64,000 nucleotides of DNA, from contig NZ_CP102826.1 of assembly GCF_025643595.1 (NCBI RefSeq), positions 3,534,001-3,598,000 of the forward strand, read 5' to 3'. Origin of the DNA: Saccharopolyspora rosea (GTDB lineage Bacteria; Actinomycetota; Actinomycetes; Mycobacteriales; Pseudonocardiaceae). The translations under genes and the position numbers were made by a program. How positions within the stretch are numbered: the stretch's first letter is position 1; each line of letters begins with the position of its first letter. Shown here piece by piece: positions 3,829-21,861 of this stretch. The notes under the pieces are model-generated. The model worked only from the letters and a program-made list of their open reading frames with translations, had not been told where the DNA came from and did not search any database.

Positions 3829-4242
3829 GTGCTCGCCACGAGGTGTCTGCGCGTCGGACTGGTGCTGCTGGCCCTGATCGAAGGCATCCCCTCGCTGTGG
3901 GCCGCGCTCGCGCCGCTGTCGTTCTACCGCGACTTCCCCACGCCGGACCGGTCCTGGCTGACGCTGTTCCCGCCGTACAACGAGCACATGACGCACGACT
4001 TCGGGCTCATCGCCCTGCAGTTCGTGGTCGTGCTCGGCTTCGCCGCCGTCTCGGTGGAACGCCGGCTGGTCCGCGTGGTGCTGATCGCCTCGCTCGTGTT
4101 CAACGTCCCGCACTGCGTCTACCACCAGCGCCACCTCGTCGAAGGCAGCGACGTGCACGTGCAGTTCGCCTCGCAGGTGGTCCCGATCGTGCTGGCCGTG
4201 GTGCTGCTGGTGGTCAACGAGCGGCGGGCGGTGGTCAGTTGA
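3829..4242 (+). CDS. Small four-helix membrane protein, unknown function
   Basis: A 137-residue hydrophobic protein with about four predicted membrane segments and a conserved-looking loop around residues 33-60 that contains LTLFPPYNEHMTHDFG. The GTG at 3829 follows GGGAGGGGGTCA, which supports this start over an upstream in-frame ATG. Histidines in the loops (EHMTHD, HCVYHQRH) could bind metal or haem, but this is not established. I do not recognise the family with confidence. It is convergent with the next gene, overlapping by eight bases. Confidence 0.65.
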   Translation: MLATRCLRVGLVLLALIEGIPSLWAALAPLSFYRDFPTPDRSWLTLFPPYNEHMTHDFGLIALQFVVVLGFAAVSVERRLVRVVLIASLVFNVPHCVYHQRHLVEGSDVHVQFASQVVPIVLAVVLLVVNERRAVVS

Positions 4243-4681
4243 GCGAGGACATGCTGATCGCCAACCGGTTGTAGGTGTTGATCAAGGCGACCGTCCACAC
4301 CAGACCGACCAGCTGCTTCTCGTCGAAGTGCTGTTCGGCCGGGAGGTAGTCCTCGTCGGGAACGCCGCCGTCGAGCCGGGTGATCGACTCGGCCAGGCGC
4401 AGCGCCGCGCGCTCGCGGTCGGTGAACAGGTCCGAGTCCGGCCAGTTCGGCAGCGCCCGCAGCCGTTGCTCCGACTCGCCCTCGTCGAGGGCCTGCCGGG
4501 TGTGCGTCGACTGGCAGAAGCCGCAGCCGTTGATCTGCGACGCCCGCAGCCGGACCAGTTCGAGCAGCCCGGCGTCCACACCGGAGTCGCGGGCGTTGGC
4601 CTCGGCTTGCCGGGTCAGCTGGTTCAGCGCCTCGAACGTCGAGGGCGTCAACCGGGGCAGGTCGAAACGGGTCTCGCTCAT
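4235..4681 (-). CDS. AhpD/carboxymuconolactone decarboxylase-like protein
   Basis: 148 residues with the AhpD-type motif INGCGFCQSTH at residues 50-60: a C-x-x-C pair (Cys53, Cys56) followed by His60. Members act as thiol peroxidase partners or decarboxylase-like proteins. The ATG at 4681 overlaps the stop of the upstream ligase (ATGA), so this is the last gene of the left arm of the biosynthetic cluster. It may protect against peroxide from the FAD enzyme of the cluster, which is an inference. Confidence 0.85.
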   Translation of the reverse strand: MSETRFDLPRLTPSTFEALNQLTRQAEANARDSGVDAGLLELVRLRASQINGCGFCQSTHTRQALDEGESEQRLRALPNWPDSDLFTDRERAALRLAESITRLDGGVPDEDYLPAEQHFDEKQLVGLVWTVALINTYNRLAISMSSLN

Positions 4682-6297
4682 CTCGTCAGCTCCCTGGGTC
4701 GGGTGGTGCGTTCGGTGGCCATCGCCGTGACCGTGCGGCGGCACACCTTGCCGGTCGGGGCGAGCGGCAGTTCCGGTAGCCGCAGCAGGAACTCCGGCAG
4801 CTTGCGGCGTTCCAGGCCGCGGTCTCGTTCGAGGAACGCCGTGAGGTCGGCCAGCGACAGCTCGGGAGCTCCGGCGGACTGGCTGATGCAGGCGCACAGG
4901 CGTTCCCCGAGGTCGTCGTCGGGCACGGGCACGCAGGCCACGTCGACGACGCCGGGGTGCGTGCTGATCTCGCGCTCGACCTCGGCCGGGCTGATCTTGT
5001 ACCCGCCTCGGGAGACGACCTGTTCGAGCCTGCCGAGCACGTGCAGCCTGCCGCGCTCGTCCAGCACGCCCCGGTCGCCGCTGCGCACCCACCCGTCCGG
5101 GGTGCGGTGGCGGGCGTCCAGCTCGGGTCCGGCGACGTAGCACAACGGGGTCATGGGACCGCGCGCCCAGACCTCCCCCGGCTCGCCGGGACGCACGTCG
5201 CGGCCCTGCGGGTCCACGATCCGGATCTCGGCGACCGCCGGGTCCGGGATCCCCGTCCCGCTGTCCGTGCCGGTCCGGGCGGTGTGGCAGTTGATGCCGT
5301 CCGACGAGCCGTAGATGGTGATCACCCGGCACCCGAAGCGGCGGCGGCACGCCTGCGCGGTCACGTCGGACAGCGGCGCCGCGCTGGACACGACCGCGCG
5401 CAGGCTGGACAGGTCCTCGTCCGGCTGCGCGGGCTGCTCGGACAGCCGCCGCAGCATCGTCGGCACCCCGAACAGGTGGGTCGGGCGGTGCCGCGTGACC
5501 AGGCGCAACGCCTCGGCCGGGTCGAACCGGTCGGCCAGCACGAGCGTCGCGCCGAGCGCGGCGATGCTCACCGACGTCGCGCAGGACCCGTACCCGGAGG
5601 ACATCTTCATCAGCACCAGCCCGCGCATCGGGCCGTCCCCGTCGTGCAGGGCGCGCACGTAGTTGGCCCGGCCGCCGCCCATCGCGTTGTGCGAGTACGC
5701 GATCATCTTCGGTTCCGACTGGGACCCCGAGGTGACCAGGATCCGGGCGGGTGCCTCCGGGTCGACCGGTTCGGCGCACCAGTCCCCGGGGTCCGGGAGG
5801 TCGTCCAGCGAACCGCCCGGGGCGAAGGTGAACACGGCGCGCATGTCCGGGAGACCGCGGGCGACCTCCGCGTCCTCGGCCGCCGCGAAGATCCCGGCGG
5901 CGGCCCGCGACCTGCCCAGCAGGCTCAGCGTGTCCCGGGTGCCGGAGCCCGCCGGGTACGGCAGGGCGACCGCACCGACGGCCGCGACGGCCAGTTCGGC
6001 CACGGCCATCCGCCACCCGTTGGGCATGCGGATGCCGATGATGTCGCGCGCGCCGAGCCCGGCGGCCGACAGCGCGGCGGCGACCTTGCGGACCTCCCGG
6101 TCCAGTGCCGCGTAGTCGAGCACGCGCTCGGCATCGATGATCGCCTCGCGTTCCGGGTGGGCGCGCACCTGCTCGCGGAACAGGCCGTACAGGTCGCGGC
6201 CCGGGCAGTCGCCCTGTCGCACCCACCTGCGACGCAGCTCGGCCGGTACGAGGTCGCGGATTTCGATCCCGTTCCGGGACATCCAGCGGTCGGTCAC
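4678..6297 (-). CDS. Acyl/aryl-CoA ligase (ANL superfamily)
   Basis: 539 residues with the adenylate-forming enzyme layout: a P-loop-like motif TSGSQSEPK near residue 200, a YGSSDG motif, SGDRG, and the C-terminal catalytic lysine in PLAPTGK. These enzymes activate a carboxylic acid as acyl-AMP and usually load it on CoA. The P-loop departs from the common SGTTGxPK form. The GTG start overlaps the upstream CoA-transferase stop (GTGA) and the stop overlaps the AhpD start. The substrate is unknown; an aryl or short acid is plausible. Confidence 0.88.
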   Translation of the reverse strand: MTDRWMSRNGIEIRDLVPAELRRRWVRQGDCPGRDLYGLFREQVRAHPEREAIIDAERVLDYAALDREVRKVAAALSAAGLGARDIIGIRMPNGWRMAVAELAVAAVGAVALPYPAGSGTRDTLSLLGRSRAAAGIFAAAEDAEVARGLPDMRAVFTFAPGGSLDDLPDPGDWCAEPVDPEAPARILVTSGSQSEPKMIAYSHNAMGGGRANYVRALHDGDGPMRGLVLMKMSSGYGSCATSVSIAALGATLVLADRFDPAEALRLVTRHRPTHLFGVPTMLRRLSEQPAQPDEDLSSLRAVVSSAAPLSDVTAQACRRRFGCRVITIYGSSDGINCHTARTGTDSGTGIPDPAVAEIRIVDPQGRDVRPGEPGEVWARGPMTPLCYVAGPELDARHRTPDGWVRSGDRGVLDERGRLHVLGRLEQVVSRGGYKISPAEVEREISTHPGVVDVACVPVPDDDLGERLCACISQSAGAPELSLADLTAFLERDRGLERRKLPEFLLRLPELPLAPTGKVCRRTVTAMATERTTRPRELTR

Positions 6298-7985
6298 GAG
6301 AACTCCCAGGGGGACAACGGGTGGACGTGCGTGGTGCGGCCGAGCGCGCGTTCGAACCGCGGGTCCTCGGCCAGCGCCCGCAGGTCGGTGCACACCGGCG
6401 TGGCGACCACACCGGCGTCGGCGAGCAGTTCGGTCCAGACCTCGGTGGGCCGGTCGCGCAACCGCGCGGCCACCTCGCCCGGGGTGCCGCCGGCCGCCGC
6501 CAGCCCGAGCGGTCCGGCGACGTCGCCGGGCGCCATGTCGCGCGGCAGCACCAGGTAGCCGTCCGCGGTCCGCAGCGGGCGGTCGAGCACCGTCCACACC
6601 GGACGGTGAACTCCGCGGGGCACCACTCCGGAGGCCGAGAACAGCGAACTGTCCACACGGGACCCCCGCCCGGTGCGCACCCGGCGGAGCAGCGACGCCA
6701 GCACGCCCTGGGCGCAGACCATCCCGCCCAGGATGTCGGTGAGCGTCATCAGCGACGGCATGCTCGGCTCGTCCCCCGGGTACGCGGCCGCGCCGAGACC
6801 GCTGTGCGCCTGCACCAGGAAGTCCGTGCCCAGCGGCAGTTCCGGCCAGGACAGCGGTTCCCACCCGGACGCCCACGCGTAGGTCAGCCCGGGGCTGGCG
6901 CGGACCAGGTCCTCGGCGTCCAGACCGAGCTGCTCGGCCTTGCCGGGAGCCCAGTTGTGCACGAACGCGTCCGCCCCGGCCACCAGTTCGCGCAGCTCGC
7001 GCTGTCCGGCGGGGGACTTGATGTCCACCTCCACCGCGCGTTTGCCGTCGTTGAGGGCGCGGAAGCGGACCGAGCAGTCCCCCGCCATCGGCGGGATGCC
7101 CCGCATCGGGTCGCCGCCGGGCGGTTCGACTCGGATCACCTCGGCGCCCAGCAGGCGCAGCACGTGCCCCACCAGCGGGCCCTGGATGCGGCGCGTCGAC
7201 TCCACCACGACGAGCCCGTCGAGCGGTGCCTCACCGCGCTTCTCCGACTCGCGCGTCGCGGTGCCCGGCAGCGGGCGCAGCCCGCACGCGGGAACTTCCA
7301 CCGGTGGCGAGGGAACGTCCCGGACCGGCAGCACGCTGACCCCGACGGCGGCGGTCGCCGCCGCCACCACGGCCTCGTAGTCGGTGTTCCGCGCGGTGGC
7401 GTGCAGCGCCTCCGGCAGGTGCCCCGCCGCGGTCGCGAACCGCTGCTGGAACGGCCACCAGCCCTCGGCGACCGCCTCGCGGTCGGCACCGAGCTCCTGC
7501 CAGAACCGGCGCCAGCCCTCGGCGTAGAGGGTCTCGACTTCGAAGCGGACCCCGTCGCGGCTGGTGAACGGCGGACGGCCACCGGGTTCCCACCGCTCCG
7601 CCCAGTCGTCGTCGGTGGTGGCCACGGCGAGGTACTGCTGCACCGCCAGCAGCGCCGCGTCGGCCACCGACGTGCGCACCGCGGTGAGCCGCGCGCCGCG
7701 CACCCGGGCGATCGACGCCGCGAGCACGCCCTGGACCGCGAGGACCCCGGCCAGCACCGAGGCGTAGTCGACGCCGAGCCGTTGCGGCCGGCCTGCGGCC
7801 CGGCCGTGGACGTGCATGATCCCGCACGCCGCCTGGACGGCGAGTTCGTCCGCCAGCGGAAGGTCGACCCGGCCCGCCCAGTCGACGTCGCTCACCAGCG
7901 GATCGGCGGCGTACTCACCCGACAGGGCCCCGAGCTGCTCGGCCGCGACCAGCCCCGCCACGTCCGCCGTCAACGTCGTCGTCAC
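6294..7985 (-). CDS. Family III CoA-transferase (CaiB/BaiF type), duplicated domain
   Basis: 563 residues. The C-terminal two thirds, from about residue 245, contain the CaiB/BaiF features LRLLGAEVIRVEPPGGDPMRG, GKRAVEVDIKSPAG and a Val-Asp-Ser-Ser-Leu segment. The N-terminal ~240 residues look like a second, partial CoA-transferase domain (GRPQRLGVDYASVLAGVLAV). The enzyme would move CoA between carboxylic acids. The GTG start is coupled to the methyltransferase stop. With two CoA ligases nearby, the pathway probably runs on CoA thioesters. Confidence 0.82.
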   Translation of the reverse strand: MTTTLTADVAGLVAAEQLGALSGEYAADPLVSDVDWAGRVDLPLADELAVQAACGIMHVHGRAAGRPQRLGVDYASVLAGVLAVQGVLAASIARVRGARLTAVRTSVADAALLAVQQYLAVATTDDDWAERWEPGGRPPFTSRDGVRFEVETLYAEGWRRFWQELGADREAVAEGWWPFQQRFATAAGHLPEALHATARNTDYEAVVAAATAAVGVSVLPVRDVPSPPVEVPACGLRPLPGTATRESEKRGEAPLDGLVVVESTRRIQGPLVGHVLRLLGAEVIRVEPPGGDPMRGIPPMAGDCSVRFRALNDGKRAVEVDIKSPAGQRELRELVAGADAFVHNWAPGKAEQLGLDAEDLVRASPGLTYAWASGWEPLSWPELPLGTDFLVQAHSGLGAAAYPGDEPSMPSLMTLTDILGGMVCAQGVLASLLRRVRTGRGSRVDSSLFSASGVVPRGVHRPVWTVLDRPLRTADGYLVLPRDMAPGDVAGPLGLAAAGGTPGEVAARLRDRPTEVWTELLADAGVVATPVCTDLRALAEDPRFERALGRTTHVHPLSPWEFS

Positions 7986-8773
7986 GCCAGCTCCTTCCGA
8001 CCCTGCACCGAGTACATGAGGCTGGACGAGGCGCGGAAGGACGGATCGCGCATCACCGCCCGCACCTCGGCCAGTTCCTCGTCGGTCATGCCGACCGACA
8101 GCAGTCCGTCCCGCAGGTGGTAGGTGTGGTGCACCTGCAACAGCAGGTCGGCCGACTCCGGGTGCCGCGGCCGGACGTACGGGCGCGGATCGATGTCGAC
8201 CAGTCCGGCCGCGCTCATCACCCGGGCGGCCCGGCGCCCCCACTCCGGGTCGGCTCCTGCTCTGCGCATCAACGTCTTCTTGGCTGCCAGGAACTTCTCG
8301 TACAGCCGCGCGGACCGCTCGTCCGGGGTGAGCAGCACCGGTTCGTAGGAGGTGTCGAACTCCTCGATCTGCAGCCAGCCGCCCGGTTTCAGCGCCCGGA
8401 CGAGCTTGGCCACCACAGCGTCCCGCTCCGGGAGGTGTTGCAGCAGCAACCGGACCACGACCAGGTCGAAGTGCTCGTCCGGGAGCGGATCGGCGGTGAT
8501 GTCGTGCACCGCCGCCGTCAGGTTCGGGTGACCGCCGACGTCGACGGGTGTGACGTCGGTGGCCAGCACGCTGCCGGTGGGCGCGACCCGGTCGGCGAGC
8601 CAGCGCGCGATGGTGCCGCCGCCGGTGCCCACGTCCAGGCAGCACCAGCCGTCCGCGACCCCGGTGGCGGCGAGCCGTTCGGTGGTCATCGCGTCGTGCG
8701 CGGTGGCGATGCACCGGTGTTGCTCGCCGCTGTGCGGGTTCGCGTTGTCGAAGACGTAGCCGACGCGCGTCAT
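7982..8773 (-). CDS. SAM-dependent methyltransferase (class I)
   Basis: 263 residues. The SAM-binding loop CLDVGTGGGTIARWLADR is at about residues 45-62, followed by an acidic post-motif (LATDVTPVDVG) and VVRLLLQHLPER. The ATG follows GAGGAGCTGCTG. It is likely an O-, N- or C-methyltransferase tailoring the product of the cluster. The substrate is unknown. Confidence 0.86.
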   Translation of the reverse strand: MTRVGYVFDNANPHSGEQHRCIATAHDAMTTERLAATGVADGWCCLDVGTGGGTIARWLADRVAPTGSVLATDVTPVDVGGHPNLTAAVHDITADPLPDEHFDLVVVRLLLQHLPERDAVVAKLVRALKPGGWLQIEEFDTSYEPVLLTPDERSARLYEKFLAAKKTLMRRAGADPEWGRRAARVMSAAGLVDIDPRPYVRPRHPESADLLLQVHHTYHLRDGLLSVGMTDEELAEVRAVMRDPSFRASSSLMYSVQGRKELA

Positions 8774-8783
8774 CAGCAGCTCC

Positions 8784-10370
8784 TCAGGTCCAGCGGCCGG
8801 TGCCGCAGGTGTCGACGCGGCCGGTGAGCTGCCCGCGCAGTTCCAGACGGCGCACCTTGCCGGTGCCGGTGCGGGGCACCTCGTCCCAGGTCAGCACCAC
8901 CGGCTCCGCCATCGGCGGCAGGCCGCGGCGGGCGCGGTGCCAGTCCTCGTCGGGCAGCTCGCCGTCCGCGGTGACGACCACCGGCAGCGGGAGTTCGCCC
9001 GGTCGGGTCAGCAGCACGCACTCCCACGCCCGCGGCAGCCGGTCTTCCAGGACGTCCTCGGTCTCCACGCAGCTCATGCCGGGAGCGTGGTCGACCTCGC
9101 GGTCGAGCAGGCGCACGCTGCCGTCCCAACCGCGGACGCCGATGTCGCCGGTGTTCCACCAGTCACCGACGCGCTTGCGCTCCCACCTCCGCGACTCGCC
9201 GAGGTAGTCCAGGCACCGGGCGGACGTGCGGGCCAGCACGAGCCCGGGGCGGCCCGGGCGCACCGGTTCGAAGGTGTCCGGATCCACCAGCCGCAGCCCG
9301 GTCTTGACCGGGATCGGTCGGCCCACGTCGTGCGTCGCGGCGCCCTCGCGCGCGATCGAGCGGCGGGTGTGGAAGCGGAAGGTCAACGGGCCGGTCTCGG
9401 TCTGCCCCCACCCGTCCATCCACAGTGGACTCGGGTGCCGACTGGCGGCCAGGTAGGCGCGGATCGTCGGCGGGTGCACCGCGTCGTAGGTGCTGATGTA
9501 GAGCCGGACCCGCCGGAACGGGTTGTCCAGGCGCTCGATCAGCGGTCGGAACCGGACGTACGACGCCGGAAGGCCCTCCAGGATCGTCGGCGGGTGCGCC
9601 CGCAGCACCGGGTCCGCGCGGTCCGGGTCCTGGCTGGTGAGCACCACCACCTCCCGGGGTGCCACGCTCATCACGACGGCCGTCCAGCAGAAGGTCCGCC
9701 CGTGGGCGTAGGAACTGGCGGTGGCCACGACGTCGTCCGGACGCGCCCCGATCTTGGGCATCCGCCGCGCCTCGAACCGGGCGAGTTCGCCGATGATCGT
9801 CCGCGTCGAGTGGACCACGAGCTTCGGCACTCCGGTCGTGCCGGAGGTGTGGTCGATGACCAGCGGTTCGTCCTCGTGCCGCCGGTGCGGCGCGGGTGCG
9901 GCGTGCCCGCGCAGGTCGTCCAGTGCGACCGCGCCCGGGACCGCGGCGTCCGAGGTCACCACGACGCGGGCCACCGACTTCAGGTCGACGCCTGCGGCGC
10001 GTGCCCGCTCGACCAGGTCCGCGGTGGTGAACAGCACGGCCGGGTCCAGTCGGGCGAGCAGGACCTCCAGCACCTCGGGCGCGAGCTGCCCGGACAGCTG
10101 CGCGGGGACCGCTCCGACGCGCACGGCGGCGCAGGCGAGCAGGTCGTAGTCCCAGTGGTTGTCCTTCACGATCGCCACCCGGTCGCCCCGCCCGGCACCG
10201 GCCGCGGCGAGCCAGCCGGCGGCCTGGCGGACCAGCTCGGCCAGAGCCGCCGCGTCGTACGCGGTGCCCCCGTCCGGGGCGATGTCGAACGGCCGGTCCA
10301 GGTGCACGCCGGTCCCGATGCCGCGTTCGGCGCACTCGTCGAAGAGCACACCCATGTCGTGCGGTTTCAA
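8784..10370 (-). CDS. Acyl/aryl-CoA ligase (ANL superfamily), second copy
   Basis: About 528 residues with a canonical P-loop HTSGTTGVPK, a WGQTETGPL motif, NTGDIG and the catalytic lysine region GTGKVRRLELRG. It is not a close copy of the ligase at 4678-6297, so the two probably activate different acids. The TTG at 10370 has GGGGGAG six bases upstream; a TTG two codons earlier abuts the ribosome site, and an ATG at 10355 is a further alternative. Confidence 0.88.
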   Translation of the reverse strand: MKPHDMGVLFDECAERGIGTGVHLDRPFDIAPDGGTAYDAAALAELVRQAAGWLAAAGAGRGDRVAIVKDNHWDYDLLACAAVRVGAVPAQLSGQLAPEVLEVLLARLDPAVLFTTADLVERARAAGVDLKSVARVVVTSDAAVPGAVALDDLRGHAAPAPHRRHEDEPLVIDHTSGTTGVPKLVVHSTRTIIGELARFEARRMPKIGARPDDVVATASSYAHGRTFCWTAVVMSVAPREVVVLTSQDPDRADPVLRAHPPTILEGLPASYVRFRPLIERLDNPFRRVRLYISTYDAVHPPTIRAYLAASRHPSPLWMDGWGQTETGPLTFRFHTRRSIAREGAATHDVGRPIPVKTGLRLVDPDTFEPVRPGRPGLVLARTSARCLDYLGESRRWERKRVGDWWNTGDIGVRGWDGSVRLLDREVDHAPGMSCVETEDVLEDRLPRAWECVLLTRPGELPLPVVVTADGELPDEDWHRARRGLPPMAEPVVLTWDEVPRTGTGKVRRLELRGQLTGRVDTCGTGRWT

Positions 10371-10394
10371 CGCCAACTCCCCCGCTCGTTCGTC

Positions 10395-12715: not shown

Positions 12716-12736
12716 CGTGTCGTCCTCACTGGTGTG

Positions 12737-13855: not shown

Positions 13856-15078
13856 CAGGCGCACCTCCCGGTGAGGAACTCGCGCACCACCGAGCACACC
13901 CTTTCGACCTGGTCGAGGGTGAGATCGGGGTAGAGCGGCAGGGCCACCGCGCGCCCCGCGGCCGCCTCGGCGCGCGGGAAGTCGCCCAGGACGTGGCGGT
14001 GCCCGGCGAAGCAGGGTTGCAGGTGCAGCGGCACCGGATAGTACGTCTCCGTGCCGATCCCGTTGCGCGCCAAGTGGTCGACGAGCTCGTCGCGGTGCTC
14101 GACCTCGATCAGGTAGACGTAGAACACCGCCGCCGAGCCGGGACCGCGGTCGACCACCTGCGGCAGCCGGACCACGCCGGGCACCCCGGTGAGCCGGTCG
14201 GTGTAGGCCGCGGCCAGTTCCGCCCGGCGGGCGATGTCGGCGTCCAGGCAGGTCAGCTTGGCCAGCAGGACCGCCGCCTGGATGTCGTCCATCTTGCTGT
14301 TGGTGCCCGCGAGCCCGGTTTCGGTGGCGATGCCCGGGAAGTGGTCCAGGGTCCGGCCGAACCGGCCGTGGTGCCGCAGCCCGGACACCAGCTCGGCGAT
14401 GCGCGCGTCGTCAGTGAGCACGGCACCCGCGTCACCGAGAGCGCCCAGCGTCTTGCTGGGGAAGAACGACAGCACGCCGCCCGCACCGTGCCGTCCCGCG
14501 TGGACACCGCCCTGGCGCATGCCGATGCCCTCGGCGCTGTCCTCCACCACGGTCAGCCCGCGGCGCTCGGCCACCTCGCCCAGCGCCGCCATGTCGGCCA
14601 TCTGCCAGAACAGGTGCGCCGGCATCGCGAAGCGGGTGCGCGGTCCGGCCACCCGGTCGACCTCGGCCGGGTCGAGCGCGTAGGTCGCGGGGTCGATGTC
14701 GGCGAACACCGGCCGCCCGCCGGCCAGCACGACGGACGTCGCGGTCGCGACGAACGAGTACGCCGGGACGACGACCTCGTCCCCGGGGCGCAGCCCGGCC
14801 GCACGCAGCAGCAGGACCAGCGCGTCGGTCCCGCTGTTGACCCCGACCGCGAACCGCGCGCCGGTGTACTCGGCGAGCTGCCGCTCCAGTTCCGCCACCT
14901 GCCGACCGTGCGAGAACTTCCCGTTGTCGAAGACCTCCTCCACGCGGGCGCTGATGGACGGCCACAGCCTGTCGAACGTCCGGGCCTGCGAGAAGAACGG
15001 GACGGATCCGGTGTCGGGGATTTCCGCCGGCACCGCGCGTTCTTCCCGCACCCCGGCTGACTCCGTCCCGCCGGACAC
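13855..15078 (-). CDS. DegT/DnrJ/EryC1/StrS aminotransferase, second copy
   Basis: About 407 residues with Lys212 in FFPSKTLGALGDAGAV as probable PLP Schiff-base lysine and Asp183 in VVEDSAEGIG. It is the first gene of the left arm, reading away from the shared promoter region. The GTG at 15078 has GGAG ten bases upstream; a GTG three codons earlier (15087) is directly next to that site and less likely. As with its neighbour, the likely substrate is a keto-sugar or keto-cyclitol. Confidence 0.9.
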   Translation of the reverse strand: MSGGTESAGVREERAVPAEIPDTGSVPFFSQARTFDRLWPSISARVEEVFDNGKFSHGRQVAELERQLAEYTGARFAVGVNSGTDALVLLLRAAGLRPGDEVVVPAYSFVATATSVVLAGGRPVFADIDPATYALDPAEVDRVAGPRTRFAMPAHLFWQMADMAALGEVAERRGLTVVEDSAEGIGMRQGGVHAGRHGAGGVLSFFPSKTLGALGDAGAVLTDDARIAELVSGLRHHGRFGRTLDHFPGIATETGLAGTNSKMDDIQAAVLLAKLTCLDADIARRAELAAAYTDRLTGVPGVVRLPQVVDRGPGSAAVFYVYLIEVEHRDELVDHLARNGIGTETYYPVPLHLQPCFAGHRHVLGDFPRAEAAAGRAVALPLYPDLTLDQVERVCSVVREFLTGRCA

Positions 15079-15330
15079 GATGACCACACTCCAGGAAAAA
15101 GAAGGGAAAAAGCGATCTGCTTGATCACGAAGCTAGCCCACCCGCAACCCGAGCCGAAAGCTCGTGCGTGGATTTCACTCGTTACGGTGACGAAAGAATC
15201 CCCGCACGACCCGCTTTCGGGCTTCCCGGGGCGATCTGTAGAGTTCCCCGGCGACAAGCCGCGCGTCCGTCTCCTGTGGACTCGCGGAGATCCCTGGAAT
15301 ACATCGTCCACAGAGGACTTACTGCCCCCG
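15079..15330. promoter_or_regulatory. Divergent promoter region of the biosynthetic cluster
   Basis: About 250 bases between the two oppositely read arms, so both promoters must lie here. A near-perfect dyad TCGTTAC-G-GTGACGA (15179-15193, one mismatch) is a candidate operator. CTGTGGAC at 15274-15281 is matched by its exact inverse GTCCACAG at 15306-15313 close to the right-arm start. No regulator gene lies inside the cluster. Confidence 0.5.
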
Positions 15331-16359
15331 ATGCTGCGATCACTCGTGGTCGGCCTCGGCCGCGCGGGCTCCGGCCTGCACCTGCGGGTGCTGTCGAAGG
15401 CGCGCGCCGTAGCCGGCGAGCTGTTCCACCCCGGACCCGTCGTCGCCTGCGACCCCGCCCCGCAAGCCCGCGGGAACCACCCGGACGTCGCCGTCGTCGA
15501 CTCCGCGCGCGCCGCCGCCCTGCTCGTCGACCCACCCACCACCGCGGTGCACGTGTGCACCCCTCCGGAGAGCCGCGTCACGGTGCTGTCCGAGCTCGCC
15601 GAGCTCGGCTTCCGCCGCATGATCGTGGAGAAACCGGTCGCCACCGGCGCCGCCGACCTGCGCGCCATCACCGCGCTGCGGTACCGGTACGGGCTCGACC
15701 TGGTGGTGGTGGCGCACTGGCTGGAGGCCGAGCTCACCCACCGGCTCGGTGCCCTGCTGCGCGACGGGTCCCTCGGCGACCTGCGGTCCATCCGGGTCGC
15801 CCAGCACAAGCCGCGGTTCGCGCGGTCGCTGGGCACCGGTGGCCACCCGACCGCGTTCGACGTGGAGGTCCCGCACTCCCTCGGCGTGGTGCTGCGGCTG
15901 GCCGGCGGCGCCGACGTCACCGGTGCCCGGTGGACCCACATGCGGTGCGGGAGCACCGTGCTGCCCCGGATGGGCAGCGCGCAGCTGGCGCTGCGGCACC
16001 GCAACGGCGTGGTCACCGAGATCAGCTCCGACCTGACCTCCCCGGTGCAGGAACGCCGCGTGGCGCTGGAGTTCAGCGGCGGCCAGGCGATCGGCCACTA
16101 CCCGATCAGCGAGCACGACGACCACGCCCAGCTCGTGGTGTCCCAGGGCGAGCGCTCGGAGCGGCACGTGTTCCGCGATGACGCGCTGACCCGGTTCGTC
16201 GTGCAGGCCTACCGGCACTTCCACGGCGAGTCCGGCGATCACGACACCTTCGACCTGCACTGCGAGATCGTCCGCCTGCTGGCGGACGCCAAGCGGCACT
16301 GCGCCGCCGGCACCGCCGCGCCGCCGATCCCGGAGAGGACCTGGACGCATGCTCGTTGA
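15331..16359 (+). CDS. Gfo/Idh/MocA family oxidoreductase
   Basis: 342 residues. The N-terminus LVVGLGRAGSGLHLRVL is a Rossmann NAD(P)-binding motif, and IVEKPVA at about residue 104 is the conserved EKP signature. The ATG at 15331 is chosen because the conserved fold begins there; the frame stays open upstream but that part is not protein-like. The family oxidises or reduces sugars and cyclitols. It is the first gene of the right arm and overlaps the isomerase gene by 11 bases. Confidence 0.87.
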   Translation: MLRSLVVGLGRAGSGLHLRVLSKARAVAGELFHPGPVVACDPAPQARGNHPDVAVVDSARAAALLVDPPTTAVHVCTPPESRVTVLSELAELGFRRMIVEKPVATGAADLRAITALRYRYGLDLVVVAHWLEAELTHRLGALLRDGSLGDLRSIRVAQHKPRFARSLGTGGHPTAFDVEVPHSLGVVLRLAGGADVTGARWTHMRCGSTVLPRMGSAQLALRHRNGVVTEISSDLTSPVQERRVALEFSGGQAIGHYPISEHDDHAQLVVSQGERSERHVFRDDALTRFVVQAYRHFHGESGDHDTFDLHCEIVRLLADAKRHCAAGTAAPPIPERTWTHAR

Positions 16360-17233
16360 ACCACCGCGCGACCGGCTGGCCGGGATCGGCGACGAGGCGG
16401 GCGCCGACCTGGCCACCCAGATCGACGCCGTGCAACGCCTCGGCTGGTCGGCGATCGAACTGCGCACAGTGGACGGTGCGCACCTCGCCGACCTCGACGA
16501 CCGGCACTTCGACGCCGTGCACCGGGCCGTTCGCGACGCGGGACTGGACGTGGTGTGCCTGGCGTCCCGGATCGGCAACTGGGCCCGCCCGATCACCGCG
16601 CCCTTCGACGACGACCTGCGCGAGCTGGACGTCCTGGCGCAGCGCTGCGCGGCGCTCGGCACGCGGTTCGTCCGGATCATGTCCTACCCGAACGACGGCC
16701 TGGAGGAGCCCGAGTGGCGCGACCGCGTGCTCGACCGGCTGTCGCGGCTGGCGGCACGCGCGACCGCGCACGACGTCGTGCTGCTGCACGAGAACTGCGC
16801 GGGCTGGGCGGGCGAGGACGCCGACCGGATGCTGCGGCTGGTGGCCGAGGTCGGCGGACCCGCGCTGCGGCTGCTGTTCGACACCGGCAACGGGATCGCG
16901 CACGGCTACGACTCCTACGCCGTGCTGCGGCGGATCCTGCCGCACGTGGCGCACGTGCACGTCAAGGACGCGGTCGGCACGCCCGGCAGCGCCACCTACG
17001 TGCTCCCCGGCGACGGCCGGTCCCGGGTCGTCGACTGCCTGCGGCTGCTGCACGCCGCCGGCTACTCGGGCGCGTTGTCGATCGAGCCCCACCTGGGAAC
17101 GCGGCCGCACGAAGGGGTCGTCGCGACCTCGGCCGAGCGGTTCGTGCAGGCGGGGCACCGCCTCGAACGCCTGCTGCGGGTCGCGGCGCTGCCACCCGCC
17201 CCCGCCGACAGCACCGCGACCCCCGCGACCTGA
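16349..17233 (+). CDS. Sugar phosphate isomerase/epimerase-like TIM-barrel protein
   Basis: 294 residues of the xylose isomerase-like (AP endonuclease 2) fold. Visible metal-site motifs are LLHENCAGW, RLLFDTGN, HVHVKDA and LSIEPHLG, giving Glu/Asp/His/Glu ligands. Related enzymes act on keto-sugars and inosose (IolE-like). The Gfo/Idh plus isomerase plus DegT combination is what an aminocyclitol or aminosugar route would need, but the substrate is not established. Confidence 0.82.
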   Translation: MLVEPPRDRLAGIGDEAGADLATQIDAVQRLGWSAIELRTVDGAHLADLDDRHFDAVHRAVRDAGLDVVCLASRIGNWARPITAPFDDDLRELDVLAQRCAALGTRFVRIMSYPNDGLEEPEWRDRVLDRLSRLAARATAHDVVLLHENCAGWAGEDADRMLRLVAEVGGPALRLLFDTGNGIAHGYDSYAVLRRILPHVAHVHVKDAVGTPGSATYVLPGDGRSRVVDCLRLLHAAGYSGALSIEPHLGTRPHEGVVATSAERFVQAGHRLERLLRVAALPPAPADSTATPAT

Positions 17234-17418
17234 CGGCCCGCCTTCGAACCCGGCGGGGCTCGCTCCGCCCTCGCAGCTCGCACCGCCGCGCGCTCGGCGG
17301 TCGTCCCACGAGGACGGCCCCTCCCGCGCACATCGGGCACGGGCTCCCGCAGCCGAGACCGCCGCTGGGGTTCCGCCGCCGGCACCGCCACGCACCACGA
17401 GCCCGAAGACAGGCACCG

Positions 17419-18711
17419 ATGTCCGATCTCCTCACCCCCGAAGACCGGGAACTCCTCCTCCACCTGCTGGCCACCCCGACCGTCGGCTTCCTGGAAGCGG
17501 CGCCGGACGACCCGCCGCCTCGGCTGCGGGAGGCGCAGCGCGCCTACGCCCGCGCCGCCGAGTCGGTCGGATTCCGCGTGGTGCGGCACGGAAGTCCGCC
17601 GCCGCACGTCCTGCGGCGCGACGACGTGCCGGTCACCGTGCGGCGGGCGGCCGAGGACCCCCGGTTCCTCGCCGAACAACCGAGCCTGCTGCTGCGACTC
17701 GGCCCGGCCCTGCCGAGGCGGGCGACCGTGATGTTCAACGTCCACCTCGACACCGTCGCCGGGCTCGAACCGGTGGGTTTGAGCGGCGGCCGGTTCACCG
17801 GACGCGGCGCGATCGACGCGAAGGGGCCGGCCGTGGCGCTGCTCAGCGGCATCCGCGACGCGGTGCGCGCCGAACCGGCGCTGGGACGCGACGTCGGCGT
17901 GCTGGTGCAGGCCGTGTCCGGCGAGGAAGGCGGTGCGATGGGCACGTTCGGCACCCGACCGCTGGTCGAGGCCGGGCACGTGGGACGCCTCAACATCTTC
18001 TGCGAGCCGACCGGACTGCGCTACCTGCCCCGGTCCACCGCGTCGATGACCGCCCGCGTGCACGTCGGCGGGCACGGCGCCGTCGACGACCGGCCGGACA
18101 CCGGCCACAACGCGAGCGTGCTGCTCGGTTTCCTCGCCCAGCACCTCGCCGCGGCGCTCGACCCGCGGGACCGGCCGGGTCGGCTGTGCATCGGCGGTGT
18201 CCACACCGGACACGCGCACAACCGCGTGTACGGCAGCGGGGAACTGCTGATCAACCTCTCCTACGCCACCTCCGCCGAAGGCGCCCGGGCCGAGAAGGCC
18301 CTGGAAGCCGCCGTCGAGGACGGCGTGCGCCGGTTCACCGGGATCTTCGCCGACACCAGGGAGTTCACCCGCACCGCCGCGGACGCGGCGGCGGTCACCG
18401 GGGTGCGCTGGCTCAAACGCGGGTTGCCGTGCCTGAACAACTCCGAGCCGTGGGCCGAGGACCTGCTCACCCGCGCCGGCATCGCCCGCTGGCCCGACGT
18501 CGAACCCGCCTTCACCTGCGACGCCATCTGGATGGACGGGATCCCGGACTGCTACACGGCGGTCCTGGGGCCGGGGTCGTTGCAGGACAACAACGCCCAC
18601 GCCGAGGGTGAGCACGCCGACCTGGACGAGTTGCACGGCTTCGCGTCCGCCGTGTCCGCGCTGCTCACCGGCTTCGCCGAACAGCACCGCGATGGGAAGG
18701 AAAGGACATGA
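17419..18711 (+). CDS. M20 family metallohydrolase
   Basis: 430 residues. Metal-site motifs are FNVHLDT (His, Asp), GRGAIDAKGP (bridging Asp) and SGEEGG (catalytic Glu plus metal Glu). M20 enzymes remove acyl or amino-acid groups (ArgE, DapE, carboxypeptidases). The gene follows a 185-base non-coding gap and overlaps the next start by four bases. It may remove a protecting group or an amino-acid unit late in the pathway, which is an inference. Confidence 0.84.
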   Translation: MSDLLTPEDRELLLHLLATPTVGFLEAAPDDPPPRLREAQRAYARAAESVGFRVVRHGSPPPHVLRRDDVPVTVRRAAEDPRFLAEQPSLLLRLGPALPRRATVMFNVHLDTVAGLEPVGLSGGRFTGRGAIDAKGPAVALLSGIRDAVRAEPALGRDVGVLVQAVSGEEGGAMGTFGTRPLVEAGHVGRLNIFCEPTGLRYLPRSTASMTARVHVGGHGAVDDRPDTGHNASVLLGFLAQHLAAALDPRDRPGRLCIGGVHTGHAHNRVYGSGELLINLSYATSAEGARAEKALEAAVEDGVRRFTGIFADTREFTRTAADAAAVTGVRWLKRGLPCLNNSEPWAEDLLTRAGIARWPDVEPAFTCDAIWMDGIPDCYTAVLGPGSLQDNNAHAEGEHADLDELHGFASAVSALLTGFAEQHRDGKERT

Positions 18712-19814
18712 CACCGCACCACGACACCGTGCGGGTGCCCTACGAGGACCTGCACGCGCTGGTGACCGACCTGTTCACCGACCGGGGAGTTCCGCCGCCG
18801 CGGGCGCGCACCGCCGCGTCCGCGTTGTGCCACGGCGACCTGTGCGGCTTCGACTCGCACGGCGTGTTCAACCTGCGCCGGCTGTACCTGCCGCTGTTCG
18901 ACTCCGGGCGGGTCGATCCCGCCGCGGAACCGGAGGTGGTGACCGACCTCGGGGCCTGCGCGGTCGTCGACGCGCGCCGGGCGCTCGGCCTGTGGGCGGC
19001 GGCCGAGGCGATGGACTCCGCGGTCGAACGGGCCGGGCGGCACGGCATCGGCCTGGTCTCGGTGCGCGGCGGGACGCACTTCGGGTGCGCGGGTCACCAC
19101 GCGGCACGCGCGGCCGCCCACGGGATGATCGGCGTGGTCGCGAGCAACTGCGGCGGCCAGCGCATCGCCCGCCCGCCGCACGGGGCTCTGGCCATGCTCG
19201 GCACCAACCCGCTCAGCGTCGCGGCCCCGGCCCTGCCCGAGCACCCGTTCGTCCTGGACATGAGCACCACGGTGGTGCCGACCGGCAAGGTCCGCATCGC
19301 CGCGAGCAGCGGCGAGACCGTCCCGGACGGCTGGCTCGCCGACGACTCCGGCGAGGCCGTCACCGACCCGACCGCCTTCGACCGCGGTGCGGCGCACCTG
19401 CGCTGGTTGGGCGGAACTCCGGACAACGGCGTGCACAAGGGCTTCGGCCTCGGGCTCGTCGTCGAAGTGCTCTCCGCGCTGCTGCCCGGCGCGGGGCTCG
19501 GCCCGGCGCCCGCGGCCCTGCTGGGCGACGGCGGGCCGCACGGCCGCGACGACGACATCGGCTACTTCGTGCTCGCCATCGCCCCGGACTCGTTGCGCCC
19601 GGCCGGGGAATTCGCGGCCGACGCGCAGACCGCGTTCGCCGCGCTCGTCGACTGCCCGTCCGCCGCGCCGGGCGAGGAGGTCCGCTACCCGGGCTGGTGG
19701 GAGTCGGAACGGGCGCAGGAGCGCCTGCAGTTCGGGGTGCCGATCCGGGAGCACGTGCACCGCGAACTGCTCGACCTCGGACTCCGCAGTCCCGCACCGG
19801 TGGGTGAGCGCTGA
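18708..19814 (+). CDS. Ldh2-type malate/L-lactate/ureidoglycolate dehydrogenase family protein
   Basis: 368 residues. Family features are DSHGVFNLRRL, VRGGTHFGCAGHHA, the GTNPLSVAAP segment and LDMSTTVVPTGKV. These NAD(P)-dependent enzymes reduce 2-keto acids or cyclic imines. The start is coupled to the M20 stop, and the stop overlaps the next start. It probably reduces a keto or imine intermediate of the cluster. Confidence 0.86.
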   Translation: MTPHHDTVRVPYEDLHALVTDLFTDRGVPPPRARTAASALCHGDLCGFDSHGVFNLRRLYLPLFDSGRVDPAAEPEVVTDLGACAVVDARRALGLWAAAEAMDSAVERAGRHGIGLVSVRGGTHFGCAGHHAARAAAHGMIGVVASNCGGQRIARPPHGALAMLGTNPLSVAAPALPEHPFVLDMSTTVVPTGKVRIAASSGETVPDGWLADDSGEAVTDPTAFDRGAAHLRWLGGTPDNGVHKGFGLGLVVEVLSALLPGAGLGPAPAALLGDGGPHGRDDDIGYFVLAIAPDSLRPAGEFAADAQTAFAALVDCPSAAPGEEVRYPGWWESERAQERLQFGVPIREHVHRELLDLGLRSPAPVGER

Positions 19815-20746
19815 TGGGCCCCAGGCGGGTCGGCCTGGTCGGACTGGGCACGATCTCGAAGTACTACCTGCACGCGATCGAGCGCTCCCCCGGCTGGGAG
19901 CTGGCCGCGGTCTGCGACGTCCGCGAGTCCGCGCTGGCGCCGCACCGGGACACCGCGCCCTGCTTCCCGGACCACCACGCCATGCTGCGCGGCGTCGCCC
20001 TGGACGCCGCGGTCGTGACCGCCCCGAACGACGTGCACGCCCCGGTGTGCCGGGACGTCCTGCGCGCGGGAATCCCGGTCTGCGTGGAGAAACCCCTGTC
20101 GTCGTCGCATGCGGAGGGCCGGGCGCTGGCGGCGCTGTCCGACGCCCTGGGGGTGCCGTTGTTCACCGCGTTCCACCGCCGCTACAACGACAACGTGCTG
20201 GGCCTGCTGGACGAGGTCCGCCGCCGCGGCGGGGCGGAGTCGCTGCGCGTGCGCTACCTGGAGCTCATCGAGGACCACATCGGCGGCGACACCTGGTACC
20301 TGGACCCGGACCGGTGCGGCGGCGGGTGCGTGGCCGACAACGGTCCGAACGCGTTCGACCTGGTTCGCCTGTTCCTCGGCGAGGTCGAGCTCGTGGACGC
20401 GACCGTGCGGCGCGACGGCGAGGTCGACCGCCAGGCCGTCGTCGAGCTCCGGTCGACCGCCGGAGTTCCCGCTGTCGTCGAACTCGACTGGTCCTACCCG
20501 GGAGAGGCCAAGGACGTCGAGGTCCGGTGCCATGACGGGACCGAGCTGCGCGCGGACATGCTGGCCGGGCACCCCGGTTTCAAGTCGTCGCTGTGGCACG
20601 AGTACGGCGGCATCCTCGACGACTTCGCCGCGACCGTCGACGCGGGCCACCGGACCGACGACGGCGGTCTGCCGGCTCTCGAACTCGTCGCGCAGATCTA
20701 CCGGACCGAGCTGGCCGGGGCACCGGCCGGAGGGGAGAGCACGTGA
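19814..20746 (+). CDS. Gfo/Idh/MocA family oxidoreductase, second copy
   Basis: 310 residues with VGLVGLGTISKYYL (Rossmann loop) and CVEKPLSSS (EKP motif). The segment TWYLDPDRCGGGCVADNGPNA matches the usual GGG-x-x-x-D-x-G-x-H region of the family, but with Asn where His is common. It is distinct from the copy at 15331, so two different redox steps are likely. The start overlaps the previous stop by one base. Confidence 0.86.
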   Translation: MGPRRVGLVGLGTISKYYLHAIERSPGWELAAVCDVRESALAPHRDTAPCFPDHHAMLRGVALDAAVVTAPNDVHAPVCRDVLRAGIPVCVEKPLSSSHAEGRALAALSDALGVPLFTAFHRRYNDNVLGLLDEVRRRGGAESLRVRYLELIEDHIGGDTWYLDPDRCGGGCVADNGPNAFDLVRLFLGEVELVDATVRRDGEVDRQAVVELRSTAGVPAVVELDWSYPGEAKDVEVRCHDGTELRADMLAGHPGFKSSLWHEYGGILDDFAATVDAGHRTDDGGLPALELVAQIYRTELAGAPAGGEST

Positions 20747-21162
20747 ACCTGGAAGAGGACGGCCCGAAGCGGTCGCTGAGCGGCACCCTGGTGAAGGTGC
20801 TGCTGCACCGCCGCGAACGACGGGGCATGTCCCTGGAGCCGCACGCCAGCCGGTGCGTCCGGCGGGGCGAGGTCCACGAGCTGGTGACCACCGACCACCG
20901 GGAAACCGCCGCGGGCGCCCGCATCGACCGGGTCGGGTTCCTCGGGTTCGCCGAGTTCGCCAGCGCAGGGGTGGTCGACCGCGGTGACGAGTTCTGGATC
21001 GGCGACCACCTCGTCGGCACCGTGCTGGGATTCGACGCCTGCCACTTCCCGAACCACTACAACATCCTCATCCGGGCCGAGGTGCCGGTCACGGGCGCGG
21101 ACCTGGGGCTGCAACCGGAGATGCCGGTGTCGTTCACACCGGCGCCGATCCCGGTGGGCTGA
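20743..21162 (+). CDS. Hypothetical protein, last gene of the right arm
   Basis: 139 residues, GTG start overlapping the Gfo/Idh stop (GTGA) with GGAGGGGAGAG upstream. It is a soluble, mixed alpha/beta-looking protein with HRRERRGMS and FDACHFPNHYNI segments and no recognised catalytic motif. I do not recognise a function. Tight coupling suggests it belongs to the pathway. A strong terminator follows. Confidence 0.72.
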   Translation: MNLEEDGPKRSLSGTLVKVLLHRRERRGMSLEPHASRCVRRGEVHELVTTDHRETAAGARIDRVGFLGFAEFASAGVVDRGDEFWIGDHLVGTVLGFDACHFPNHYNILIRAEVPVTGADLGLQPEMPVSFTPAPIPVG

Positions 21163-21219: not shown

Positions 21220-21753
21220 TCAGCCGAGCAGTTCGACGTCCAGCTCGCCGTAGTGGAACGCGCGGACCGCGTCCAGCAGCTCGTCGAGGGACAGCTCGCC
21301 GTTGTTGTTGGTGTCGACCTTGCGGAACGCCTCGGCGGCGTGCGACTGGTCGACGCCGACGGCGTCCATCCAGGCCACCCACTCCTGGCCGTTGATCTGC
21401 CCGTCGTCGTTCTTGTCGCACATGCCGACGATGCCGCGCACCACCGGGCCGAGGACCCGGTTGAACGACGCCTCGGCGCCCTCGGCGACGAGCTTGCCGC
21501 CGGCCTTGACGAACTGCTCCTCGGACAGCGAGCCGTCGGCGGGGATGCCGGCCTGCTCGGCGAGCTGCGTGAACATGCCGACGAAGGCGTCGCGGAGCTC
21601 GCGGGCCTCGGGACCTTCCGGGTCCTTGCCGAAGGACCGGGCGATCTGCATGGCCTCCTTCTCGAAGTCCGCGCGCTCCAGGCTGCCGCTGCCGTCCACG
21701 TCCCACTTGGCGAAGCGCTTGCGGAGCCGCTCGTTCGCGATGGTCGCGTCCAT
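21220..21753 (-). CDS. Calerythrin-like EF-hand calcium-binding protein
   Basis: 177 residues with three intact EF-hand loops: DVDGSGSLERAD (18-29), DKNDDGQINGQE (113-124) and DTNNNGELSLDE (147-158). A degenerate second hand lies near 71-80 (PADGSLSEEQ). Length and text, including SFNRVLGPVV and the VELLG end, match calerythrin of Saccharopolyspora erythraea as I recall it. It is a cytosolic calcium buffer or sensor of the sarcoplasmic calcium-binding type. The ATG follows GGAAGGAAG. Confidence 0.93.
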   Translation of the reverse strand: MDATIANERLRKRFAKWDVDGSGSLERADFEKEAMQIARSFGKDPEGPEARELRDAFVGMFTQLAEQAGIPADGSLSEEQFVKAGGKLVAEGAEASFNRVLGPVVRGIVGMCDKNDDGQINGQEWVAWMDAVGVDQSHAAEAFRKVDTNNNGELSLDELLDAVRAFHYGELDVELLG

Positions 21754-21861
21754 GGTGGTACTTCCTTCCTCTGTCACTACGGGACATGTTCCGGCAGGAT
21801 CCGCCAGTCTCCCGCCCCAGCGCGGCAAACGGTCTTCCGCGCAGGTCTTGCGATTCTTCGT

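Follow-up and report, generated by a model that had tools for sequence, protein, structure and literature searches.

The 64,000-nucleotide stretch of the Saccharopolyspora rosea genome analysed here (the window; the genome is one contig of 6.56 Mb) contains a divergent cluster of 15 genes at positions 4235-21162, made up of a minus-strand arm of nine genes (4235-15051) and a plus-strand arm of six (15331-21162). These 15 genes are one conserved unit, with conservation far beyond chance. Three more genes beyond the right edge (21220-23499), encoding a calerythrin orthologue, a protein of the UDP-sugar 6-dehydrogenase family (UGDH) and a small secreted-type protein, co-travel with the cluster. 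The unit is therefore about 18 genes long and larger than 4235-21162, and the right boundary of 21162 drawn in the first-pass annotation of this DNA was too short. On balance, and by a modest measure, comparison of sequences leads us to favour a specialised-metabolite cluster for a prenylated amine of the meroterpenoid type. A UbiA-superfamily prenyltransferase with intact prenyl-diphosphate motifs is present, and isoprenoid supply genes are found in homologous loci of about ten genomes.

Eight of the genes (Gfo1, TIM, M20, Ldh2, Gfo2, DUF6917, DegT1 and DegT2) are referred to as the core. The core appears to be a reusable module that makes a discrete building block, because it shares one operon with trpDCBA in one relative and with purine-type enzymes in another. 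Prenylation of the core product is the most economical reading, given the terpenoid genes and the motifs of UbiA. The cluster family is spread over many actinomycetes, including known antibiotic producers, and its building-block module includes an uncharacterised domain, DUF6917.

Conservation and forms of the cluster

Gene models in the window are from a codon-usage gene call, and domains were assigned with Pfam and NCBIfam. A scan of named genomes gave 227 stretches that encode relatives, and the best 80 of the 227 are called the named loci below. Genes in the loci were called with a caller of our own and grouped into families by BLAST; several genomes entered the initial grouping (97 loci) twice, and some genomes contribute more than one fetched locus. 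Loci were taken with 10 kb flanks, and left-arm genes often lie beyond these, so that left-arm counts are lower bounds. The full eight-gene core is present in 73 of the 80 named loci; of the 66 that span 20.3 kb or more, 64 have it. Across the same 80 loci UbiA was found in 54, the FAD enzyme in 45, calerythrin in 64, UGDH in 45 and the secreted protein in 48. All of 12 related windows, 11 from the same genus and one from the same family, contain 14 or 15 of the 15 genes; CMD is the gene that four of them lack, and two have a rearranged left arm.

Of 92 loci compared (the 12 windows and the 80 named loci, some of them from the same genomes), 87 have both DegT1 and Gfo1, and 65 of these show the two genes in divergent orientation; Nocardiopsis and relatives have the cluster genes on a single strand. 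A match to UbiA (42-72% identity) was recovered in 19 of 20 genomes whose fetched locus had none or a distant one; G021 is counted by way of its other, full cluster, and only G031 is without a match. Other cluster genes stand beside UbiA in 17 of 18 windows read around such matches. The first-pass annotation had proposed one biosynthetic cluster and not two catabolic operons, and this is supported, because the two arms co-travel, they adopt a one-strand arrangement in Nocardiopsis, and genes of the methylerythritol phosphate (MEP) pathway, polyprenyl synthases and exporters join them.

The DUF6917 family (PF21891) was detected in 16 of 61 relatives and in 79 of 297 Pseudonocardiaceae genomes, representing 15 of 46 genera (a few of the proteins are fragments); a sample of 395 further genomes from across the phylum had none. 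This patchy distribution is as expected for specialised metabolism. DUF6917 homologues also occur outside the cassette, in Thermomicrobium roseum (L168) beside a proline racemase family gene and in G004 (L040) beside a gene that looks threonine-synthase-like by eye. In about six Nocardiopsis-type loci (e.g., L087:1-3418) a fused TrpE-clade3 anthranilate synthase and a ThyX-like protein are encoded upstream of the cluster.

Four forms of the cluster can be distinguished. The first, seen in the window, combines the core with UGDH, calerythrin, the secreted protein, UbiA, FAD, LigB, MT, CaiB, LigA and CMD. The second, the MEP form, has the core, UGDH, a UbiA of 40-46% identity, MT and at least one of DXS, IspG, IspH and a polyprenyl synthase; some members add exporters of the MFS (assigned by eye) or MMPL families. 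A BLAST survey of six such proteins against 154 loci placed MEP-form genes in the loci of G044, G057, G064, G066, G072, G074, G476, G580, G610 and the NBC_00490 plasmid. Some of those in G072 lie in a separate UbiA locus, and DUF6917 is split in two pieces in G057. On the NBC_00490 plasmid DUF6917 is fused to DXS, and Gfo2 and DUF6917 are a single protein in G021, G585 and G498. The ligase and CoA-transferase set, which is only partly present in the MEP form, would be a later layer.

The third form lacks UbiA. G021 has, on one strand, UGDH, trpD, trpC, trpB, trpA, Gfo1, DegT1, DegT2, TIM, M20, Ldh2, the Gfo2/DUF6917 fusion and a B3/4-domain gene; by called starts, there are overlaps of 4-17 nt at 10 of its 12 joins and gaps of 65 nt at the other two. 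Its TrpD, TrpB and TrpA score over the curated cut-offs of the ordinary enzymes, TrpC falls 0.6 bits under, and another trpB copy (57%) is present elsewhere in the genome. The B3/4 protein at the operon end (L039:18131-18784) is like tRNA-synthetase editing domains and might give protection from an amino acid analogue that is toxic. In G031, UGDH and the core diverge from a TrpB-like gene. In G726 the one-strand order is Gfo2, DUF6917, Gfo1, DegT1, DegT2, TIM, M20, Ldh2, AICARFT-like, UGDH and PurB, with joins that are mostly 1- or 4-nt overlaps and three gaps of 60, 4 and 37 nt; the adjoining divergent genes are PurC-, PurA-, beta-RFAP-synthase- and PurH-like.

The RFAP-synthase homologue of G726 passes TIGR00144 (180.5 against 113.5 bits) and misses the equivalog model NF040726 (181.7 against 328). 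PurB passes its cut-off (568.7 against 446), the AICARFT-like protein is one bit under, PurC misses TIGR00081 (146 against 189.9), and the shortfall is large for PurA and the PurH piece. Elsewhere in this genome, which is rated 92% complete, no other PurC match at 1e-10 and only one PurB-family match (34%) were detected. The fourth form is the four-gene set TIM-M20-Gfo2-DUF6917, found in three genomes. GT2 and GT39 genes beside it (L172) were considered as a sign of a lipid-linked sugar and set aside, as the three genomes belong to one genus and the neighbours are housekeeping-like.

Association with calerythrin

The window calerythrin (21220-21753, minus strand) matches PDB 1nya over residues 4-177 (E 1.1e-70). 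EF loops 1, 3 and 4 are canonical, and their key positions are nearly invariant in 97 aligned sequences (Asp18 in 97, Asp113 in 96, Glu124 in 97, Asp147 in 95, Glu158 in 96). Among 22 genomes of the genus, DUF6917 and calerythrin are found in an identical set of 12, and neither is found in the other 10. Over the 297 Pseudonocardiaceae genomes, 72 have both, seven DUF6917 only, eight calerythrin only and 210 neither (Fisher's test 4e-51, relatedness ignored). The two genes lie within 20 kb of each other in 68 of the 72; in the other four they are on separate contigs, and in one of these (G011) the cluster reaches the contig end.

The calerythrin-only genomes include two (G697 and G581) in which partial clusters surround the gene and four (G535, G547, G027 and G648) with proteins of 33-38% identity, which are probably paralogues. 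The DUF6917-only genomes include one with a window-type locus (G523), one with a partial cluster (G686) and one with a fragment only (G629). Calerythrin mostly accompanies the FAD/LigB form and not the core as such. Its position varies, next to DUF6917, beside LigA or between DegT1 and Gfo1, while the linkage is kept. Of the 72 loci with both genes, 55 have calerythrin and DUF6917 on opposite strands, and 11 have them adjacent on the same strand. Six Streptomyces-type cluster windows (L143-L147, L161) have two EF-hand genes beside DegT1, with 38-47% identity to that of the window.

Calerythrin, the protein known from Saccharopolyspora erythraea (PDB 1NYA), is a long-studied model of structure and folding for which no pathway is known. 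In G033 (L184), UGDH and an EF-hand gene (C1:3541044-3541571) are separated by a single gene from the rest of the cluster, where 14 of 15 genes were recognised and only CMD was not. Bit scores of the window protein are 240.6 with the product of this EF-hand gene and 240.5 with 1NYA, consistent with the G033 gene encoding the 1NYA protein. In S. kobensis a gene for a DUF222-HNH protein separates DUF6917 from calerythrin (L043:10968-12308, L028); a relative of this gene follows DUF6917 in G013. The gene is probably a mobile insertion.

Gene functions and predicted pathway

Pfam was applied to the 15 cluster proteins and four neighbours, and to 29 of the 61 called genes in the window as a whole. 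The tight packing in two arms that had been described is borne out: overlaps of 1-11 nt occur at 9 of the 14 joins, and the remaining joins are left-arm gaps of 10, 24 and 21 nt, 185 nt between TIM and M20, and the 279 bp between the arms (15052-15330). A promoter region shared by both arms had also been claimed; this found no support, as no sigma-70-like site was detected in 14900-15500, a scan that is weakly informative in an actinomycete. The minus-strand genes run CMD, LigA, CaiB, MT, LigB, FAD, UbiA, DegT2, DegT1, and the plus-strand genes Gfo1, TIM, M20, Ldh2, Gfo2, DUF6917. All of the enzyme families named in the first-pass annotation were recovered (two DegT, two Gfo/Idh, an AP_endonuc_2 TIM barrel, two AMP-binding ligases, a class III CoA-transferase, a methyltransferase, an amine-oxidase-type FAD enzyme and UbiA), and CMD/AhpD, M20, Ldh_2 and DUF6917, which it had left unnamed, are added. 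Its statement that polyketide synthases, nonribosomal peptide synthetases and glycosyltransferases are absent holds for the 29 genes scanned.

In the pathway that we favour, UGDH (21862-23121, minus; PF03721/PF00984/PF03720; TIGR03026 at 413 bits, over cut-off) would yield a UDP-uronic acid. Gfo1 (15331-16359; PF01408), of the Gfo/Idh/MocA type, would oxidise a ring hydroxyl, and the resulting ketone would be aminated by DegT1 (13855-15051; PF01041, E 2.3e-101), a DegT/DnrJ/EryC1 aminotransferase. The second such enzyme, DegT2 (12737-13855; PF01041, E 1.3e-90), would install another nitrogen. Five proteins could then dehydrate or isomerise the intermediate, strip an N-acyl group, oxidise the sugar end, oxidise an alpha-hydroxy acid and close or aromatise the ring. 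These are the AP_endonuc_2 TIM barrel, which is like sugar isomerases and dehydratases (16349-17233; PF01261, E 3e-34), the M20-family amidohydrolase or deacylase (17419-18711; PF01546), Gfo2 (19814-20746; PF01408 and PF22725), Ldh2 of the type 2 malate/lactate dehydrogenase family (18708-19814; PF02615, E 1.7e-98) and DUF6917 (20743-21162; PF21891, E 1.6e-56, 189.9 bits against a gathering cut-off of 27).

UbiA (11744-12715; PF01040) would move a prenyl chain from a prenyl diphosphate onto an acceptor derived from the core. The supply of that diphosphate is not encoded in the cluster itself, as no MEP or polyprenyl genes were found by Pfam among the 15 cluster proteins and four neighbours. 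The prenylated core may be tailored by methylation, oxidation and CoA- or AMP-activated acylation. The candidates for this are the S-adenosylmethionine-dependent methyltransferase MT (7982-8773; PF08241 and relatives; 35-41% matches also in the MEP form), the flavin-dependent (FAD) amine-oxidase/HpnE/desaturase-like enzyme (10395-11747; PF01593, E 1.3e-42), the aryl-CoA-ligase-like AMP-dependent ligase LigB (8784-10370; PF00501), the AMP-dependent acyl-CoA ligase LigA (4678-6297; PF00501 and PF13193), the class III CoA-transferase CaiB (6294-7985; PF02515, E 7.7e-65) and the CMD/AhpD-family protein (4235-4681; PF02627, E 2.5e-18; in 8 of the 12 related windows, L026-L037). CaiB has about 250 additional N-terminal residues, its best stretch being 255-451. 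The NCBIfam neighbours of LigB include benzoate-CoA ligase and AvaA6, every one well under cut-off. The most likely role of calerythrin is to bind or carry the hydrophobic product in a Ca2+-dependent manner, or to regulate a step, and not merely to buffer calcium in general. We infer each of these steps, with the order and exact substrates of the core reactions and the role of calerythrin, from gene content, conservation, motifs, co-occurrence and fusions.

Residues that we take to be the catalytic ones of their families are almost all conserved. The pyridoxal-phosphate lysine is present in 100 of 102 aligned DegT1 sequences (Lys200) and 110 of 111 DegT2 sequences (Lys189). In Gfo1, Lys101 (EKP) and His182 (FDxExPH) are invariant in 97, as are the metal ligands of TIM (Glu148, Asp178, His202, Glu246) in 110 and His109, Asp111, Asp133, Glu169 and Glu170 of M20 in 106. 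UbiA has Asp79/80/86/89 and Asp225 in 93 of 93 and Asp221 in 92 of 93; Lys517 of LigA is found in 29 of 32 (the other three are gapped) and Lys505 of LigB in 53 of 53. The EKP lysine of Gfo2 is likewise invariant (105 of 105). Asn179, also in 105 of 105, stands at what we presume to be the position of the catalytic His, so that the reaction of Gfo2 may differ from the ordinary one.

Structural comparison places the prenyltransferase in the UbiA fold: its sole PDB profile match is UBIAD1 (E 2.8e-4), and its model (pLDDT, predicted local distance difference test, 87) has DGGGP synthase as best Foldseek match and UBIAD1 as the next. A phosphoribosyl-transferring role is less likely, the membrane phosphoribosyltransferase 8j8j, presumably a DPPR synthase, scoring E 6e-3 against 7e-6 for prenyl-diphosphate enzymes. 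The nearest PDB relative of Gfo2 is L-arabinose 1-dehydrogenase, and those of the DegT proteins are sugar and inositol aminotransferases. DUF6917 (model pLDDT 92) has no clear PDB match; comparison with beta-barrels like EF-Tu domain 2 and PTS IIA reached a best VIA-align Z of 4.1 and a best Foldseek E of 0.4. The idea that it might be a partner like that of C-glycoside deglycosidases (DgpB) was considered, but that family was not among the matches listed.

The UbiA-less forms bear on the identity of the acceptor. Ordinary TrpD and TrpC act on anthranilate, and PurC, PurB and PurH on an amine adjoining a carboxylate; the acceptor may therefore be an ortho-amino (hetero)aromatic acid. That two unrelated partner sets share the core would imply a single demand, a ring ortho-amino carboxylate, and UbiA, RFAP synthase and TrpD would be alike in coupling rings of this kind with diphosphate donors. 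The forms linked to Trp and Pur genes thus indicate an ortho-amino aromatic acid at least as much as an amino sugar. On this basis the core and UGDH could turn a UDP-sugar, independently of shikimate, into an ortho-amino (hetero)aromatic acid (e.g., an aminopyrrole or aminopyridine carboxylate), and the UbiA, G726 and G021 branches could share this route. We put this forward as a tentative possibility, because the Trp enzymes score as ordinary and may simply make tryptophan. Should the core indeed convert a sugar to an aromatic amino acid, this would open a new biochemical way into aromatic and nucleoside-like compounds.

In such a route UGDH would provide a C6 acid, Gfo1/DegT1 and DegT2 the two nitrogens, and M20 would remove the acyl group. 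Gfo2 would oxidise the sugar end, Ldh2 would give an alpha-keto acid for closure by the amine, and TIM and DUF6917 would dehydrate. In the UbiA clusters a prenyl diphosphate might then alkylate the acid, perhaps with decarboxylation (as occurs on prenylation by MenA); in G726 the beta-RFAP-synthase homologue might C-ribosylate it before the PurC/PurB/PurH relatives close a purine-like ring; and in G021 the dedicated trpDCBA might convert it to a tryptophan analogue. Calerythrin would be the Ca2+-dependent partner of the prenylated branch. The earlier suggestion, in which a CoA-activated acid is coupled to an amino sugar, a cyclitol or an amino acid, is retained in part: a product prenylated by UbiA is what we would predict as well, but the CoA-activated conjugate finds no firm support, because the ligase/CoA-transferase layer is partial in the MEP form and the Trp and Pur forms suit an ortho-amino aromatic acid at least as well as an amino sugar.

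Several observations weigh against the proposed pathway and the part of calerythrin in it. UGDH is within reach in just 45 of the 80 named loci. Aromatic and polyol acceptors are not told apart by the structure matches of UbiA. For Gfo1 the PDB gave no relative at 1e-3, which makes a WbpB-type 3-oxidation by this enzyme a guess. Calerythrin is missing from two MEP genomes (G580 and G610), from the UbiA-less G031 and G726, and was not found in G523 and G686, whose loci have window-type genes. In G498, G585 and G625, DUF6917 is in the four-gene form and calerythrin on another contig, and in G480 a calerythrin of 46% identity has no cluster beside it.

It is possible, if doubtful, that the trp and pur genes supply only tryptophan or purine units, to which the core product is attached later as a separate amine. 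The scores given above would suit the use of ordinary substrates (TrpD, TrpB, TrpA and PurB over their cut-offs, TrpC and the AICARFT-like protein within about a bit), and G021 has its additional trpB. On the other hand, overlaps occur at 10 of the 12 joins in the G021 run that begins with UGDH, continues with trpDCBA and the core and ends with the B3/4 gene, and G726 has a homologue from the C-nucleoside-synthase family, and its PurC and PurA homologues miss the ordinary cut-offs.

The main rival of an aromatic acceptor is a core product that is a non-aromatic diamino sugar acid or aminocyclitol, made by streptidine- or Wbp-type chemistry, with a polyol O- or C-prenylated by UbiA, in concept like the ebo and BE-40644 systems discussed below. 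Two Gfo and two DegT proteins with a TIM barrel would fit such a product, as would the sugar and inositol aminotransferases nearest to DegT, the weak NCBIfam neighbours IolG and IolE of Gfo2 and TIM, the prenylation of a polyol by DGGGP synthase, and the proposal made in excerpts on the ebo operon (PMC5133447). We regard it as rather unlikely, since the scanned cluster proteins include no sugar phosphate cyclase, amidinotransferase or glycosyltransferase, and operons of the trpDCBA and Pur/RFAP type are hard to square with a saturated cyclitol.

That calerythrin is only a syntenic neighbour and a general Ca2+ buffer is unlikely. It is treated as a buffer in passages of a review (PMC10574481), and its usual place on the strand opposite to DUF6917, with its absence from G580, G610, G031 and G726, would agree with a bystander. 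Against this stand the strict co-occurrence in the genus (12 of 12 against 0 of 10), the linkage kept through shifts of position, the 11 loci with the gene adjacent to DUF6917 on the same strand, and the two copies in six Streptomyces-type windows.

Very improbable is a pair of catabolic operons, the right arm degrading a sugar acid (gulonate- or inositol-like) and the left an acid via CoA thioesters: TIM, Ldh_2, Gfo, CaiB and CMD resemble catabolic enzymes at the family level, and seven Kitasatospora-type loci have a sugar kinase, an FAD oxidoreductase and a GntP permease a few kb downstream, but the two arms are found together in different genera and are accompanied by UbiA, MEP genes and exporters, and their distribution is patchy (0 of 395 across the phylum, 79 of 297 in the family).

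The small secreted-type protein (23218-23499, minus) is defined by an alignment of nine sequences, with a signal peptide judged by eye; one homologue, scanned in place of the window protein, gave no Pfam match. Directly left of the cluster, 2-2687 is a PQQ-type (pyrroloquinoline quinone) cofactor operon encoding PqqC-like and PqqA-like products (both by eye), PqqD (PF05402) and a radical SAM/SPASM protein. To the right, a 1578-aa RHS-repeat protein with small neighbours (28083-32819, minus) is possibly a polymorphic toxin locus. The stretch 38139-64000 resembles an integrated mobile element, with tRNA-Leu(GAG), then a phage-integrase-family gene and a long region of lower GC and lower third-position GC (GC3) that includes a T2SSE ATPase; a B12-binding radical SAM protein is encoded at 46141-47538 within the low-GC part.

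Comparison with known systems

We know of no characterised cluster with this core. No published match was found by title or start of abstract, most subscription literature being outside reach, in keeping with the first-pass annotation, which had recognised none. At the DNA level, plasmids gave one partial Streptomyces match only.

The WbpA/WbpB/WbpE pathway to a diamino-uronic acid uses UGDH, Gfo/Idh and DegT enzymes in that order. The same set is present here, and WbpE is the third-ranked distinct PDB name for DegT1. In contrast, Gfo1 has no WbpB match at 1e-3, no acetyltransferase or glycosyltransferase is among the 15 genes, and an extra DegT, Ldh_2, M20, TIM, DUF6917 and UbiA are added. 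Streptidine-type pathways are resembled in the two dehydrogenases and two DegT aminotransferases, but none of the 15 genes encodes the amidinotransferases and cyclitol kinases of those pathways. The 3-amino-5-hydroxybenzoate (AHBA) pathway of ansamycin type is also distinct, since AHBA synthase (1b9h) scores 127 and 120 bits against 256 (2oga) and 208 (7b0d) for the best DegT matches.

The ebo operon of eustigmatophyte plastids and bacteria, for which excerpts of the source propose an isoprenoid-cyclitol product of structure not known (PMC5133447), likewise combines a UbiA-superfamily prenyltransferase with a xylose-isomerase-like TIM barrel. It differs in its sugar phosphate cyclase EboD (PF01761), a family without a Pfam hit among the 15 cluster proteins and four neighbours, in EboB and EboF, which have no relatives by Pfam family among the proteins scanned, and in the two DegT, two Gfo, M20, Ldh_2 and DUF6917 proteins of the present cluster. 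The BE-40644 cluster of Actinoplanes, in the same excerpts (PMC5133447), also has a UbiA prenyltransferase and joins an isoprenoid to a sugar-derived ring, but relies on a sugar phosphate cyclase, for which there is no Pfam match here.

In formycin biosynthesis, as outlined in parts of two papers, a PurA/B/C/H-like set and a beta-RFAP-synthase-like enzyme act on an aminopyrazole dicarboxylate (PMC8724604, PMC8183095). Likeness to formycin A and pyrazofurin is confined to the relative G726, with its PurB-, AICARFT-, PurC-, PurA- and PurH-like set and beta-RFAP-synthase-family homologue (PMC8724604, in part); by Pfam the window cluster is without Pur or RFAP genes. G726 differs from formycin clusters in that the core sits within the operon and Lys/Glu pyrazole genes were not seen in it. 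A gene that appears by eye to be Lys/Orn N-hydroxylase-like lies about 15.5 kb from the core, and another contig (L212, C12:22000-41900) has a set of N-N-bond type, with MetRS-like, small cupin-like and two N-hydroxylase-like genes (by eye except for the MetRS domain). It is possible that those genes supply the pyrazole and that G726 has a plain formycin cluster.

With calerythrin 1NYA, finally, the window protein shares three canonical EF loops. The role given to it in passages of the literature is that of a Ca2+ buffer (PMC10574481), whereas here the gene is placed in a biosynthetic cluster, which gives calerythrin a concrete and testable biosynthetic context.

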